Of a DNA stretch of 22,134 nt, positions 695 through 22,134 are shown piece by piece. Below the pieces are notes generated by a model. The model did no database searches. It was not told the origin of the DNA and was given only the letters and a program-made list of their open reading frames with translations. Made by a program: the position numbers and the translations under genes. Position 1 is the stretch's first letter; each line of letters starts with the position of its first letter. Origin of the DNA: a virus; IMG/VR virus record IMGVR_UViG_3300018080_000641, positions 1-22,134 of that record, one strand, 5' to 3'.

Positions 695-1258
695 GTGGCC
701 AAACGCAAACGCACCACCAAGCCCGCGGCCCGACGCCGGCCGGCCCGCAAGAAAGCCGCCCCAAAACCGCCCCCGATCGGCGAGGCCGTCCTCGGCCGCG
801 TTATCTTGCTTCTGGCGTCGCTCCAAGACCGCGCGGCCGTCGCCGAGGCCTGCCGCTCAAAACTCGAGATCCCCGACGGCCAGGTCGACGCGACCATCGA
901 GGAGGCCCGCCGGCAAATCACTCTCGCCGCCGACTACCACCGCAACCAGGAGCTCGGCCGCGCCATAACCCGCCTAAACGACTGCTACGAGCGCTCCCTC
1001 AAAATCCAGGACGTCAAAACGGCCCTCGCAGCGCAAAAGGAGATCAACAAGCTACTCGACCTCTACCGGCCCACCGACGGCCCCGTCGATCCGGACCGCG
1101 AGACGACGCACGACCAGGCCGTCGACGAGCTCGCCGAAGTCCGCGACCACCTGGCCCCCCTCGGCCTGGCCGACGACGAGACCTCCACCGTCGAGCTCGC
1201 CCGCCTGGCCGTCGCCGCAATCTGCGAACACGATGCCCGCAACAGCGACAAAGCGTAA
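695..1258 (+). CDS. probable terminase small subunit
   Basis: A 187-aa protein starting at GTG with a strong GGAGGG ribosome-binding site at 682-687, 7 nt upstream. The first 28 residues are very rich in Lys, Arg, Pro and Ala, as expected for DNA contact. Residues about 30-75 could form a helix-turn-helix-like helical domain (EAVLGRVILLLASLQDR, then DGQVDATIEEARRQ). Residues 80-130 are strongly helical and could oligomerise. No recognisable family signature was seen. The call rests on position: immediately before, and overlapping by 26 nt, the large terminase, where small terminases normally lie. An alternative is another packaging accessory protein. Confidence 0.55.
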   Translation: MAKRKRTTKPAARRRPARKKAAPKPPPIGEAVLGRVILLLASLQDRAAVAEACRSKLEIPDGQVDATIEEARRQITLAADYHRNQELGRAITRLNDCYERSLKIQDVKTALAAQKEINKLLDLYRPTDGPVDPDRETTHDQAVDELAEVRDHLAPLGLADDETSTVELARLAVAAICEHDARNSDKA

Positions 1259-3299
1259 ACCGCGCAAGAAGCGAACCGCCGCCGGCTACCAGCGCGAGCG
1301 CCTCCGCAAGCGCCAGTACGCCGCCCGCCGATCCCACATCGGCCGCGACATCGGCAAGCTACCGCCCGTAGCCGATCCGGCCCGCAAGCGAGCCTGCCGC
1401 TGGGATTTTCGGGCCTTTTGCGAGACCTACTTTCCGGAAGTCTTTTGCCTCGAATGGAGCGAGGGGCACATCGAGGCCATCGAGCGTATCGAGGCCGCAG
1501 TCCTCGACGGCGGCCTGTTTGCGCTGGCCATGCCTCGCGCGTCCGGCAAAACATGCCTCTGCGAGGCCGCCGTCCTCTGGGCCGTCCTCTACGGCCACCA
1601 CCGCTACGTCGTCATCATCGCCAGCGACAAGGACGCGGCGGCAGAGCTCCTAAAGAGCATCAAGAACGAGCTCGAAGGAAACGACACGCTGGCCGCCGAC
1701 TTCCCCGAGGTCTGCTACCCGATCCGCGAAATCGACGGCATAGCCCACCGATGCAAGGGCCAGCTCTACCAGGGCCAGAGAACCCGGATCGGCTGGAAAA
1801 CCCAGGAATGTATCCTGCCGACCATCCCCGGCAGCCCCGCATCCGGCGCCCTTGTCCAGGTCCGCGGAATCACCGGCCGCATCCGTGGCATGAAAAACGG
1901 GACCGACCGGCCCTCCCTCGTCATCGTCGACGACCCGCAGACCGACGGCTCGGCCGTCAGCCCGGCCCAATGCACCCGCCGCGAGCGGACCCTGGCCGGC
2001 GCCGTGCTCGGCCTGGCCGGCCCCGGCAAAAAGATCGCCGGCCTTATGCCATGTACCGTCATCGCCCGCGACGACATGGCCGACCGCATCCTAAACCCGT
2101 CCATCCACCCGGAATGGCATGGCCTCCGGACCAAGCTACTCTATGGTTTTCCAACGCGCCAGGATCTTTGGGAGAAATACGCCGAGCTCCGAGCCGAGGG
2201 CCTCCGCGCCGGCGTCGGCCTGAAACGGGCCACCGCTTTCTACCGTCGCAACCGGCGCGAAATGGACCGCGGAGCCAAGCCGGCCTGGCCGGCCCGCTTT
2301 AATGACGACGAGCTCTCCGCCGTTCAGTACGCCATGAACCTGTATCTGCAGGACCGGCACGCTTTCGCGGCGGAATACCAGAACGATCCATTGCAGGACG
2401 AGGCCGCCGAGGGCCTCATGAGCGCGGAGGAAATCGCCGCCAAACAGCTCAACTACCGCCGCCGCGAGATCCCCACCAATTGCACGCACCTGACCGCCTA
2501 CATTGACGTCCACGACGCGCTGCTTTGCTACGTCGTCAGGGCCTGGGAGCCGGACTTTACCGGCTACGTCGTCGACTACGGCGCGGAGCCCGACCAGAAG
2601 AAGGCCTATTACCTACTCCGGACCGCAAAACCGACCCTGGCCGACGCCGCCCCCAAGGGCAGCAAAGCCGCGGCCGCGGCCATCTACGCCGGCCTCGAGC
2701 GTCTCGTCGACCGCCTCCTGGCCACGCCCTGGAGACGACGCGACGGCGCCGGCCTGCAAATCGGCCGCCTCTTGATCGACTCCGGCTACCAGGCCAAGAC
2801 CATAAACCGCTTTTGCCGCGACCGCCGAAGCGCAATCATTATGCCGTCAAAGGGGCTCCCGCTCGGTCCCGCCCAGAAGCCCTTTTCAGAGTACGAGCGC
2901 CGCCCCGGCGAGCTCTACGGCGACCATTGGCGGATTGTCACGCCCCGCGGCCGCGGCGAGCTCCGGCACATGCAAATCGACGTCAACCACTGGAAGAGCC
3001 AAGCTCACGCCGCCTTTATGACGCCCGCCGGCGAGCCCGGCGCCTCCTTCTTGTGGAAGTCCGACAAGCACCAGCTTTTCGGGGACCACTACCGCGCCGA
3101 AAGCCCGACACGCACGGAGGGCCGCGGCCGCGTCGTCGACGTCTGGCAACTGCCGCCGTCGAAGCCCGACAACCACCTTTTCGACTGCGACGTCGGCGCC
3201 CGCGCCGCGGCCTCTACGCTTGGCGTCGCCCTGCCGTCCGACCGCCTGCCGCAAAAGCCCCAGAGGCAACGCAGACGCCAGGCCGTCAAATACCTTTAG
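1233..3299 (+). CDS. terL: terminase large subunit (packaging ATPase and nuclease)
   Basis: A 688-aa motor protein that pumps DNA into the prohead and cuts the concatemer. The N-terminal ATPase shows a Walker A-like loop MPRASGKT at residues 100-107 and a Walker B strand SLVIVDDPQ at 228-236. Between them is the GITGRIRGMKNG segment typical of terminases. The C-terminal RNase H-like nuclease is marked by TAYIDVHD (D425), GRLLIDSGYQ (D516) and HLFDCDVGARAAAS (about 648-661), giving the usual acidic cluster. The length is within the usual large-terminase range or slightly above it. The first 40 residues are basic. The start overlaps the preceding gene by 26 nt and has no clear Shine-Dalgarno, suggesting translational coupling. 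Confidence 0.93.
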   Translation: MPATATKRKPRKKRTAAGYQRERLRKRQYAARRSHIGRDIGKLPPVADPARKRACRWDFRAFCETYFPEVFCLEWSEGHIEAIERIEAAVLDGGLFALAMPRASGKTCLCEAAVLWAVLYGHHRYVVIIASDKDAAAELLKSIKNELEGNDTLAADFPEVCYPIREIDGIAHRCKGQLYQGQRTRIGWKTQECILPTIPGSPASGALVQVRGITGRIRGMKNGTDRPSLVIVDDPQTDGSAVSPAQCTRRERTLAGAVLGLAGPGKKIAGLMPCTVIARDDMADRILNPSIHPEWHGLRTKLLYGFPTRQDLWEKYAELRAEGLRAGVGLKRATAFYRRNRREMDRGAKPAWPARFNDDELSAVQYAMNLYLQDRHAFAAEYQNDPLQDEAAEGLMSAEEIAAKQLNYRRREIPTNCTHLTAYIDVHDALLCYVVRAWEPDFTGYVVDYGAEPDQKKAYYLLRTAKPTLADAAPKGSKAAAAAIYAGLERLVDRLLATPWRRRDGAGLQIGRLLIDSGYQAKTINRFCRDRRSAIIMPSKGLPLGPAQKPFSEYERRPGELYGDHWRIVTPRGRGELRHMQIDVNHWKSQAHAAFMTPAGEPGASFLWKSDKHQLFGDHYRAESPTRTEGRGRVVDVWQLPPSKPDNHLFDCDVGARAAASTLGVALPSDRLPQKPQRQRRRQAVKYL

Positions 3300-19679: not shown

Positions 19680-19934
19680 ATGGCCGCAAGAACCGCTCCC
19701 CCCCGCCGGGGGCTCATTCGCGCTGACGAGGCCTACACCGTCGCCGAGCTGGCCGAGATCCTCGGATTCAACCAGCCCCGCCAGGTCGCCCGCAAGCTGG
19801 AGGCCCGCGGCATCCAGCTTGACGCGTGGGGCCGCGGCTGGCCCAAAACCCTCATTTCCGGCCGCGTGATTCTCGAATCGGTCGATCGAGCCAACCGGGG
19901 AGAGTCGCCATGCGTCGCCGCCACCGAAACCTAA
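19680..19934 (+). CDS. excisionase-like winged-helix protein
   Basis: An 84-aa protein. AYTVAELAEILGFNQPRQVARKL is a helix-turn-helix, and RGIQLDAWGRGWPKTLISGRVIL is a wing-like segment, as in excisionases and MerR/AlpA-type DNA-binding proteins. AAAGGA lies 9-10 nt before the ATG. The gene overlaps the start of the integrase by 25 nt, the usual Xis/Int arrangement. Family knowledge: such proteins bind beside the attachment site, bend it and turn integration into excision. The paired repeats near attP are its candidate targets. Transcriptional regulation of int is an alternative role. Confidence 0.7.
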   Translation: MAARTAPPRRGLIRADEAYTVAELAEILGFNQPRQVARKLEARGIQLDAWGRGWPKTLISGRVILESVDRANRGESPCVAATET

Positions 19935-21136
19935 AACCCGCCACGGCCGGCCCCTACCGCGTCCGCGCCGTCTGGCGATCGGACCGCGGCGTCTACTATG
20001 CCGAGTGGCGACACACGGCCACCGGCGAGACCGGCCGCCGGAGCCTCAAGACGGACAACGTCCGCGAGGCCGACCGCCTGTGCTCCGACGTCGCCGCCGA
20101 GCTGGCCGCCCGACGCACGGCCGAGCGGACCGGCTGGCGGGCCCTCCGCCGCCGCTACGTCGCCGAACACCTGGCCGGCCTGTCGGCCAGCTACCGCGAG
20201 AGCTTCGAGCTTGCCGCCGACCACTTCGAGCGGATCGTCTGCCCCCGCGACGTTTTCGACGCCGACGCCTCGGCCGTCTCCCGCTACATCGCCGGCCTCC
20301 GCGACCATCACCTGGCCCCCGCGTCGATCGGCTCCTATGCCGCCGCCCTAAAGGCCTTCTTGCGATGGGCCGAGCGACTTCTCGAGGGCGTCTATGCGGC
20401 GCCCCAGATCCAGACCCCCAGCCGCCGCCGCGGCTGTCTGATGCGCGGCCGCCCCATCACGGCCGAGGAATTCGAGCGGATGCTGGCCAAGGCCAAGAAG
20501 GCCGTAGGGGCCGCCCACGCGGCCGGCTGGCGCCACCTGATGCGCGGCCTCTACCTCAGCGGCCTCCGCCGCTGTGAGGCCCTGGCCCTCACCTGGGACC
20601 GCGAGAACACGCTGCACGTCTACCACGGCCCCGAGCCCCGCTACCGGATCGACGGCCGCCGGCCCATGCTGGCCATCCTGGCCGAATTCGAGAAGGGCAA
20701 GAAGGACCGCCTTTTGCCGATCACGCCCGACTTCGCCACGTTCCTCCGCAAGACCCCAGTGAACGAGCGTACAGGCCACGTTTTCCGGCCGACCCTTGCG
20801 AGGGGCCGGCCCCACGAGGACACCGTTTCGCATCGGATACGCCTTATGGCCGAGCTGGCCGGCGTGGCTGCCGGCACGAACGCGGACGGCTCGCCCCGCT
20901 GGGCCACGCCCCACGATTTCCGCCGCAGCTTCGGCGACCGCTGGGCCCCCCACGTGGAGGCCATGGTCCTGAAAGAGCTCATGCGCCATGAGTCGATCGA
21001 GACGACTGAACGCTACTACGTCGGCCGTTCGGCCGAGCGGACGGCCGCGGCGGTCTATGACGCTTTCCAGCGGATCGACCAGGGACGCGACGCGGCCCCC
21101 ACGCGGACGGGCTGCGGACAGGACGCGGACAGATAG
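19910..21136 (+). CDS. int: tyrosine recombinase (phage integrase)
   Basis: A 408-aa protein with all catalytic elements. R is in GLRRCEALAL (about residue 223), K in EKGKKDRLLPI, HDFRR supplies His and the second Arg, the later His is in MRHESIETTE, and the nucleophile Tyr is in ERYYVG. Residues about 12-45 (YRVRAVWRSDRGVYYAEWRHT) form the beta-strand arm-binding type domain. Residues 85-190 are the SAM-like core-binding domain. The ATG at 19910 follows GGGGAGAG and matches the family length. Earlier in-frame codons lie inside the preceding gene. It catalyses integration at a tRNA-Ser gene, judging from the copy at 21287-21341. The last codons lie in the 11-bp repeat array at 21103-21152. 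Confidence 0.93.
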   Translation: MRRRHRNLKPATAGPYRVRAVWRSDRGVYYAEWRHTATGETGRRSLKTDNVREADRLCSDVAAELAARRTAERTGWRALRRRYVAEHLAGLSASYRESFELAADHFERIVCPRDVFDADASAVSRYIAGLRDHHLAPASIGSYAAALKAFLRWAERLLEGVYAAPQIQTPSRRRGCLMRGRPITAEEFERMLAKAKKAVGAAHAAGWRHLMRGLYLSGLRRCEALALTWDRENTLHVYHGPEPRYRIDGRRPMLAILAEFEKGKKDRLLPITPDFATFLRKTPVNERTGHVFRPTLARGRPHEDTVSHRIRLMAELAGVAAGTNADGSPRWATPHDFRRSFGDRWAPHVEAMVLKELMRHESIETTERYYVGRSAERTAAAVYDAFQRIDQGRDAAPTRTGCGQDADR

Positions 21137-21152
21137 CGGACAGGACGCGGAA
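21103..21152. repeat. 11-bp-phased GCGGACA array, cluster A
   Basis: GCGGAC begins at 21103, 21114, 21125 and 21136, and a variant GCGGAA at 21147, each exactly 11 bp apart. The intervening bases differ, so the phase rather than the whole unit is conserved. The array spans the stop codon of int and is 45 nt from the left GTGACCA pair. Regular one-turn spacing suggests cooperative binding by a protein on one face of the helix. Confidence 0.85.
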
Positions 21153-21185
21153 AACCCGCTCCCCGAGCCCCCTGAAAAACCGAAG

Positions 21186-21220
21186 GCGCGCATAAAGTGA
21201 CCATTTGGGTGACCACGCCC
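21186..21220. repeat. left GTGACCA pair (candidate arm-type site)
   Basis: GTGACCA at 21197-21203 and GTGACCAC at 21209-21216, 12 nt start to start, preceded by GCGCGCATAAA. The same arrangement recurs at 21435-21469. It lies 71 nt from the tRNA-derived core. Integrase or excisionase binding is the likely use. Confidence 0.7.
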
Positions 21221-21286
21221 AGCCGGCCCCCCCGCCCACCTTCAGCGGAACACACACAACCCCAGATTGCCAAACAACTTAGAAAG

Positions 21287-21341
21287 CGGAGGGCAAGGGG
21301 CTCGAACCCTCAACCGGCAAGCCGGCACCTGATTTCGAGTC
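21287..21341 (-). other. attP core: 3' part of a tRNA-Ser(CGA) gene
   Basis: Read on the minus strand this is the end of a serine tRNA. It contains the anticodon loop CTCGAAA (anticodon CGA), the 3' anticodon stem TCAGG, and a long variable arm (CCGGC-TT-GCCGG). The T-arm GAGGG-TTCGAGC-CCCTT, acceptor GCCCTCC and discriminator G follow. CCA is not encoded. Upstream of the loop only GA matches the expected stem and the 5' half is absent, so it is not a working tRNA. A phage carries such a copy to restore the host tRNA after integration, with strand exchange probably in the anticodon arm. Integrase beside it supports this. Confidence 0.8.
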
Positions 21342-21356
21342 GAACGGGGGTGTTTA

Positions 21357-21378
21357 CAGGAGGCGCCCAGGAGGCGCC
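21357..21378. repeat. tandem CAGGAGGCGCC
   Basis: Two perfect, adjoining copies of CAGGAGGCGCC (21357-21367 and 21368-21378). Each contains the palindrome GGCGCC. The 11-bp period equals that of the GCGGACA arrays. It lies between the att core and the right GTGACCA pair, a place where accessory bending proteins usually bind. Confidence 0.75.
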
Positions 21379-21434
21379 ACGGCGCATAAGTCCTTTGCCG
21401 AACGTCGCCGACACACCGAGAAACCGCGGCCAAT

Positions 21435-21469
21435 GCGCGCCATAAGTGACCAATAGAGTGACCACACCC
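21435..21469. repeat. right GTGACCA pair (candidate arm-type site)
   Basis: GTGACCA at 21446-21452 and GTGACCAC at 21458-21465, again 12 nt start to start and preceded by GCGCGCCATAA. It is in the same orientation as the left copy, 249 nt away by box position. Because it contains GTG codons it can be mistaken for a start of the HNH gene. Confidence 0.7.
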
Positions 21470-21481
21470 CGGGGCCCCGCC

Positions 21482-21793
21482 ATGCCCATCCGACCGGAGA
21501 ACCGCCACCGCTACCCCGCCGACTGGAAGCTCCGCCGCCGCTTCATCCTCCACTACCGGGCCGGCAACCGCTGCGAGTGGTGCGGAGCCGAAAACTACAA
21601 GCCCCACCCGGTCACCGGCTCGCGCGTCGTCCTCACCATCGCCCACGTCTACGACGACCGCCCCGAGGCCTCTAACCTCTTGAACCTGGCCGCCTTGTGC
21701 CAGCGCTGCCACAACCGACACGACGCGGCCGGGCGACGTCGCCGTCGCCGCGAGCGCCTCGACCGGATCAACGGCCAGCGATTGCTCTTCTGA
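21482..21793 (+). CDS. HNH endonuclease
   Basis: A 103-aa protein with C31-x2-C34, LTIAHVYDD (H55), N65, and CQRCHNRHD (C73, C76, H77, H80). This is the HNH fold with a Cys4 zinc site and a His-Asn-His centre. Phage HNH enzymes of this size often assist terminase-linked cutting of packaging DNA, and others are homing nucleases. The end is basic (GRRRRRRERLDR). I chose the ATG at 21482 since the alternative GTG at 21446 lies in the repeat. No clear ribosome-binding site is present. If the molecule is circular it would lie upstream of the packaging genes with some sequence missing between. Confidence 0.85.
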   Translation: MPIRPENRHRYPADWKLRRRFILHYRAGNRCEWCGAENYKPHPVTGSRVVLTIAHVYDDRPEASNLLNLAALCQRCHNRHDAAGRRRRRRERLDRINGQRLLF

Positions 21794-21801
21794 CGCCGTC
21801 T

Positions 21802-21867
21802 GCGGACACCTTGCGGACAGAACGCGGACGCAATGCGGACACGCTGCGGACACAACGCGGACAGATT
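21802..21867. repeat. 11-bp-phased GCGGACA array, cluster B
   Basis: GCGGAC starts at 21802, 21813, 21824, 21835, 21846 and 21857, six copies at exactly 11-bp intervals, with five of six reading GCGGACA. It begins 9 nt after the HNH stop codon. The same element and period occur in cluster A at the end of int, so both probably bind the same factor. Confidence 0.88.
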
Positions 21868-21971
21868 GCGCCTCAAGAACAAGAACAAGAACCAATACAA
21901 GGTAGGGAGTGAGTCGAGACGACCGTTTACATATCACTCCCAAGAAAAGGCCCACATCGCCCTGATTTCCA

Positions 21972-22003
21972 GTTTTCAGAAAACCGCGATTTTCGCCCGA
22001 AAA
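21972..22003. promoter_or_regulatory. two operator-like palindromes
   Basis: GTTTTC-A-GAAAAC (21972-21984) and TTTTCG-CC-CGAAAA (21990-22003) share TTTTC and GAAAA arms and lie about two helical turns apart by centre. They are in non-coding DNA before the window's right edge, upstream of a possible promoter, and would suit a dimeric repressor. Confidence 0.4.
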
Positions 22004-22098
22004 GTTCTAGCGGGGCGCAGCCGCGCAAGGCCGAGGCGCCGCCGCGCACCCCTCCCGCTAAACGTGGTCACTTTTCACCCCTGAGCCGTCCGCCGATC

Positions 22099-22130
22099 TG
22101 CTATTCTGCCCGCCGTTGAAACACGGAGGG
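22099..22130 (+). promoter_or_regulatory. possible promoter and ribosome-binding site of a gene beyond the window
   Basis: TG-C-TATTCT at 22099-22107 resembles an extended -10, with no good -35. GGAGGG at 22125-22130 is a strong Shine-Dalgarno 4 nt before the window ends, so a start codon is expected just outside. GTGGTCAC lies upstream at 22064. Confidence 0.35.
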
Positions 22131-22134
22131 CTGA

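Follow-up and report, generated by a model that had tools for sequence, protein, structure and literature searches.

Phased GCGGACA arrays beside a phage attachment site: probable iterons of a replication origin

Why should a phage carry two arrays of the same short word, each unit exactly 11 bp from the next, on either side of its putative attachment site? The stretch of DNA analyzed here, called the window, comprises all 22,134 nucleotides of the IMG/VR virus record IMGVR_UViG_3300018080_000641, and the question is raised by features close to its right end:

19910..21136, + strand: tyrosine integrase gene, int (PF00589, phrog_1), start codon uncertain (19826 or 19910)
21103..21153, + strand: iteron array 1, four GCGGAC and one GCGGAA in 11-bp phase, spanning the int stop codon
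21482..21793, + strand: HNH endonuclease gene (phrog_1571), between the att core and array 2
21802..21863, + strand: iteron array 2, six GCGGAC (five GCGGACA, one GCGGACG) in 11-bp phase

Array 1 consists of GCGGACG at 21103, GCGGACA at 21114, 21125, and 21136, and GCGGAAA at 21147, and array 2 of GCGGACA at 21802, 21813, 21835, 21846, and 21857 with GCGGACG at 21824, every step in both being 11 bp. The first-pass annotation had described two such arrays of GCGGAC, and both are confirmed, on the + strand, except that the fifth unit of array 1 reads GCGGAA. It had also placed one array across the int stop codon and the other just past the HNH stop, and this holds: the int stop TAG (21134-21136) falls within array 1, and array 2, which is intergenic, starts 8 nt beyond the HNH stop (21791-21793). 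When all hexamers were scanned at periods of 7-40 over the 22-kb window, arrays 1 and 2 were the only phased runs of at least four units, and in 100 third-order Markov shuffles of the window the longest phased run was 3, as compared to 4 and 6 observed. Lone GCGGACA words are unremarkable in number (9 in the window vs. 4.8 expected), so that the arrays stand out by their phasing and not by single-word counts. That one protein binds repeatedly along a single face of the helix, as had been suggested, still seems the best reading of this phasing. We consider it probable (roughly 0.76) that the arrays are iterons of a phage replication origin which was moved out of the initiator gene to the attP side. 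The possibility that the array is the C-terminal part of the HNH gene was rejected, the end of the HNH gene being conserved-looking and its relatives LE3 and RcDormio having no phased words there.

Three consecutive GCGGACA-N4 units are found in at least 80 IMG/VR contigs, which range from 33 to 72% GC and differ in their spacers. Control searches gave 5 contigs for the scrambled (reversed) word, 51 for 12-bp spacing, and 21 for 10-bp spacing, with near-identical units in many of the arrays examined at 10 and 12 bp. Among the matches listed, 40 of 80 arrays at 11 bp lie inside initiator genes; the share drops to 2 of 51 with 12-bp spacing and to 3 of 21 with 10-bp spacing. The Fisher p value for the 11-bp vs. 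the 12-bp share is 6e-9 and is only a guide, since related contigs are counted; the 32 initiator N-termini used correspond to 16 clusters at 70% identity, and the loci are not all independent. Initiators were called with profiles of the N-terminus only, in order to exclude matches via the translated repeat, and the matches of an iterated profile (g2) to positions 21794-22081 of the window, to L005, L025, and others were discarded, as the translated repeat alone had matched. PHROG families of replication initiation, DnaD-like helicase loader, or O-like proteins were matched by nine of the ten array-bearing proteins tested, and no Pfam family scored above cut-off for the initiators. Within initiator genes, the iterons run on either strand relative to coding (13/27), and it is therefore the DNA word, not a peptide, that is conserved. 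The in-gene arrays are followed by a purine tract on the coding strand with a mean length of 26 nt, as compared to 10 upstream.

In a motif-free test, for which initiators were picked by protein family in Pirellulales and among terminase relatives, phased runs of at least four units occur at period 11 only, among periods of 7-20. The genomes of L340 and L345 had originally been reached via the motif, those of L335 and L336 had not. The heptamer itself varies, being GCGGACA in L340 and L345, GGGGACA in L335, CGGGACA in L337, and of the type GCGGAA in L336, and L334 and L216 possess a CGTTACG-type word at a spacing of about 11-12 bp. The arrays of the Pirellulales initiator L336 extend over 1429-1475 and 1864-1930, about 450 bp apart, and for the one upstream of the start codon autoregulation is possible. 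Outside the window, roughly one GCGGACA array in two is not located within a recognized initiator, some of these lying by late-gene activators or integrases, and the word may therefore serve other proteins too. Of the uses listed in the first-pass annotation, replication-initiator iterons are thus the one backed by comparative evidence. A literature search, with subscription journals outside its scope, retrieved no paper describing a GCGGACA 11-bp iteron, and a search for the heptamer gave, among the matches listed, only unrelated ones and none on phage.

In lambdoid origins (ori-lambda and Stx phages), the iterons are situated in the middle of initiator gene O and are followed by an AT-rich region (PMC7466680). 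Most recognized GCGGACA-type phages resemble ori-lambda in that tandem initiator-binding iterons and an AT-rich region lie in the initiator gene. However, the lambda iterons are 19-bp imperfect inverted repeats, whereas here a 7-bp word recurs every 11 bp, and the arrays of the window and of its sister lineage are located outside the initiator gene, beside attP. Since the window arrays lie outside any initiator, their origin may work like ori-lambda but be laid out differently. The initiators of Salmonella phage epsilon15 and Pseudomonas phage phiPSA1 belong to the group of PHROG families 2509, 9474, 2514, and 186, and in their genes GAGAAGAGAAGAG (a GAGAAG tract) comes after GCGGACA/TGTCCGC words. 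The initiator product of epsilon15 carries a DnaT-like HHpred match in its annotation, and in phiPSA1 the initiator gene is followed by a gene for a DnaC-like loader. In these two phages the words are in the gene, fewer, and partly inverted, whereas the window has 4-5 and 6 of them, on one strand and outside any initiator.

The sister lineage consists of L005, L008 (identical to L360), L025, L063, and L070, which encode a terminase of the window's family:

1233..3299, + strand: terminase large subunit (GpA nuclease), 43% identical to the L063 terminase

Its integrase is distantly related to that of the window, and its tRNA core is a different one, by eye tRNA-Gly. The order in this lineage is int, tRNA core, two GTCCGC/GCGGAC arrays, purine-rich and AT-rich DNA, and terminase, and right after the arrays the GC content is the lowest of the contig in all five (L005, L025, L063, L070, and L360). 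The first-pass annotation knew of no att region laid out in this manner; the sister lineage provides the parallel. L063, L070, and L360, the three members with enough upstream sequence, encode a short initiator (phrog_2509/9474) that comprises the N-terminal domain (match to phrog_2509 with an E value of about 1e-30). The gene terminates at the point that iterons occupy in other initiator genes, and the stop of the L063 gene overlaps the gene that follows. This mini-initiator is predicted to form a mixed helix/strand domain, and when solved structures were searched by sequence and by fold, the only matches were weak and winged-helix-like. A short initiator without iterons together with att-side arrays indicates that the origin became detached from the initiator gene and lies beside attP. 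The window conforms to this arrangement, which it extends by an HNH gene and a second array. Terminase relatives retrieved by a single-sequence search are without such arrays.

The DNA to the right of array 2 contains two further elements:

21861..21980, no strand: candidate DNA-unwinding element, the lowest-GC 120 bp of the contig (47% GC vs. 68%)
21874..21893, + strand: purine-rich (CAAGAA)3, directly 3' of array 2, resembling the purine tract after initiator-embedded arrays

By the criterion used for in-gene arrays, the purine tract of the window is short (11 nt), being broken by C. The in-gene array of L020 is like array 2, including TGCGCC and AAGAAN repeats, and a scan for further exact copies of the array-plus-purine layout identified L020 only. 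Array 1 has no AT-rich neighbor, and no DnaA box was found in the window. We infer that a small winged-helix initiator, probably encoded on a part of the genome that is missing from the contig, would bind to both arrays, occupying one GCGGACA per helical turn, aligned on one face of the DNA. Array 2 is the proposed core of the origin, and the initiator bound there would melt the adjoining AT-rich DNA with its purine tract (21861-21980), so that unwinding would begin to the right of the array and a helicase could be loaded. Array 1 would belong to the same system, as a second, accessory iteron cluster across the att core.

No initiator gene was found in the window, even at relaxed thresholds. 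In G004, G008, and G011, terminase relatives that do have an initiator of this type, it is encoded on the terminase strand, upstream of the terminase in G008 and G011, and in G004 too if that genome is circular. By comparison with these relatives, the initiator of the window is probably located past the left end, or past the right end if the genome is circular, and the contig is probably a fragment of a phage genome. At positions 22125-22134, ten bases before the contig ends, a GGAGGG resembles a ribosome-binding site, which suggests that a gene begins just outside the contig.

If the arrays did not belong to an origin, they might be accessory sites for site-specific recombination, i.e., integrase arm-type or excisionase sites bracketing attP. 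The following elements lie in and around the attachment region:

19680..19934, + strand: gene for a small protein of 84 aa that precedes int and whose position resembles that of an excisionase gene
21197..21215, + strand: GTGACCA-N5-GTGACCA, candidate integrase arm-type pair, P arm
21282..21341, - strand: att core, 3' part of a planctomycete-type tRNA-Ser(CGA)
21446..21464, + strand: GTGACCA-N5-GTGACCA, candidate integrase arm-type pair, P' arm
22065..22071, - strand: lone inverted GTGACCA (TGGTCAC on the + strand), close to the contig end

The core is 87-88% identical to tRNA genes of Pirellulales and Thermoguttaceae and is called as tRNA-Ser(cga) by ARAGORN, so that an attP core between the arrays is well supported. 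For the 84-aa protein, a family search gave no firm match (best phrog_7796, E 0.02). Arm sites like those of P2 had been the first hypothesis, and the arrays do occur on both sides of the tRNA core and, in some bacterial genomes (e.g., L125, L136, and L139), also 3' of integrase genes. It was dropped after a check that the first-pass annotation had proposed, a search for phased GCGGACA in relatives of the integrase: none of the 20 relatives compared (about 37-45% identity) has such arrays. Other paired repeats are present instead: four of the five Pirellulales relatives with a suitably oriented tRNA have direct-repeat pairs about 80-100 bp from it, for example GGTGACAC-TTTT-GGTGACAC; GTGACAC pairs are situated 91 bp from tRNA-Arg in L231 and 92 bp from tRNA-Leu in L237, L246 has GGGTGGCG 82 bp from tRNA-Pro, and L248 a pair at 11-bp spacing near the tRNA, with no paired repeat by the tRNA in L242. 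In the window, this place is held by the GTGACCA pairs, which flank the core on both sides at 67 and 105 bp and are the best candidates for integrase arm sites. With int, tRNA core, and flanking direct-repeat pairs, the window resembles a tyrosine-integrase attP; the GCGGACA arrays, however, lie outside this module. Array 2 begins about 460 bp from the core, past the HNH gene, and the arrays elsewhere lie in initiator genes, mostly with no integrase nearby. We therefore regard a role of the arrays as accessory recombination sites, which had been among the suggested uses, as unlikely. As a single-sequence query against IMG/VR, the window integrase gave no match.

Phased repeats would also suit a ParR-like or repressor protein, and it has to be asked whether the arrays are operators, or a partition or silencing site, for a regulator unrelated to replication. 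Some GCGGACA arrays adjoin late-activator genes (L057 and L064), and one of the two arrays of L336 precedes the initiator start codon. However, no partition gene was seen among the window proteins scanned, the contig being probably incomplete, and such a function would leave both the AT-rich neighbor and the strong association with initiators unexplained, which makes it quite improbable. Since the GCGGACA iteron is common to many phages, the initiator of another phage could also recognize the window arrays, and the element might then carry an origin that is used in trans in a satellite-like manner. This would explain a window without an initiator, but the contig probably represents only part of a genome, and L063, L070, and L008/L360, three contigs of the sister lineage, have an initiator of their own. 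Moreover, with genes for a terminase, a portal, a major head protein, and a tape measure, the window is not a typical satellite; we think an origin used in trans highly unlikely.

Within the reading of the arrays as replication-origin iterons, it might be asked whether the att core splits the origin, with arrays 1 and 2 on opposite sides of the tRNA-Ser crossover and the origin complete only in the excised circle. If so, integration would part the arrays to the prophage ends and excision would rejoin them, and such a bipartite origin would couple replication to excision, no additional switch being needed. We hold this to be unlikely. In the sister lineage, both array clusters are situated on one side of the core, and a split origin would therefore be special to the window's branch.

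If they serve as an origin, the repeats beside attP belong to a class of phage origins that is widespread, Pirellulales genomes included, and apparently little described, in which a 7-bp word recurs every 11 bp, usually within the initiator gene. A lineage with its origin outside this gene makes it possible to ask, as a natural test, why initiator genes are the usual place of origins, and the origins of uncultured phages could be predicted from a motif as simple as the phased GCGGACA.

Other loci with the word differ in context. In L009, L011, L018, L035, L041, L053, L054, L058, and L060, the array lies in a gene unlike those of winged-helix initiators; the gene starts read, those of L009 and L011, are ribbon-helix-helix-like, and perhaps another protein family uses the GCGGACA word there. 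The arrays of L044, L057, L061, L064, L068, and L181 occur behind a common ATCATAATARCACGG-like stretch, and in L057 and L064 the adjoining gene is phage late-activator-like. The arrays located 3' of an integrase gene in L125, L136, and L139 are Betaproteobacterial; in L136 and L139, purine-rich DNA and a DnaA-box-like TGTGGATAA come next, and a phrog_9474 initiator was not found in these three genomes. In Duganella/Rugamonas, three consecutive GCGGACA-N4 units recur in at least eight related genomes (L084, L086, L087, L105, L111, L118, L155, and L157), several of the arrays being preceded by a common stretch resembling CTTGTCGTAAGGTCAAGC. The metagenome-assembled genome RUG13410 of an uncultured Bacteroidetes (L092, L096-L099, L104, L108, and other contigs) has dispersed palindromic arrays in many places, made up of three to four TGTCCGC, TTTTAAA, and three to four GCGGACA.
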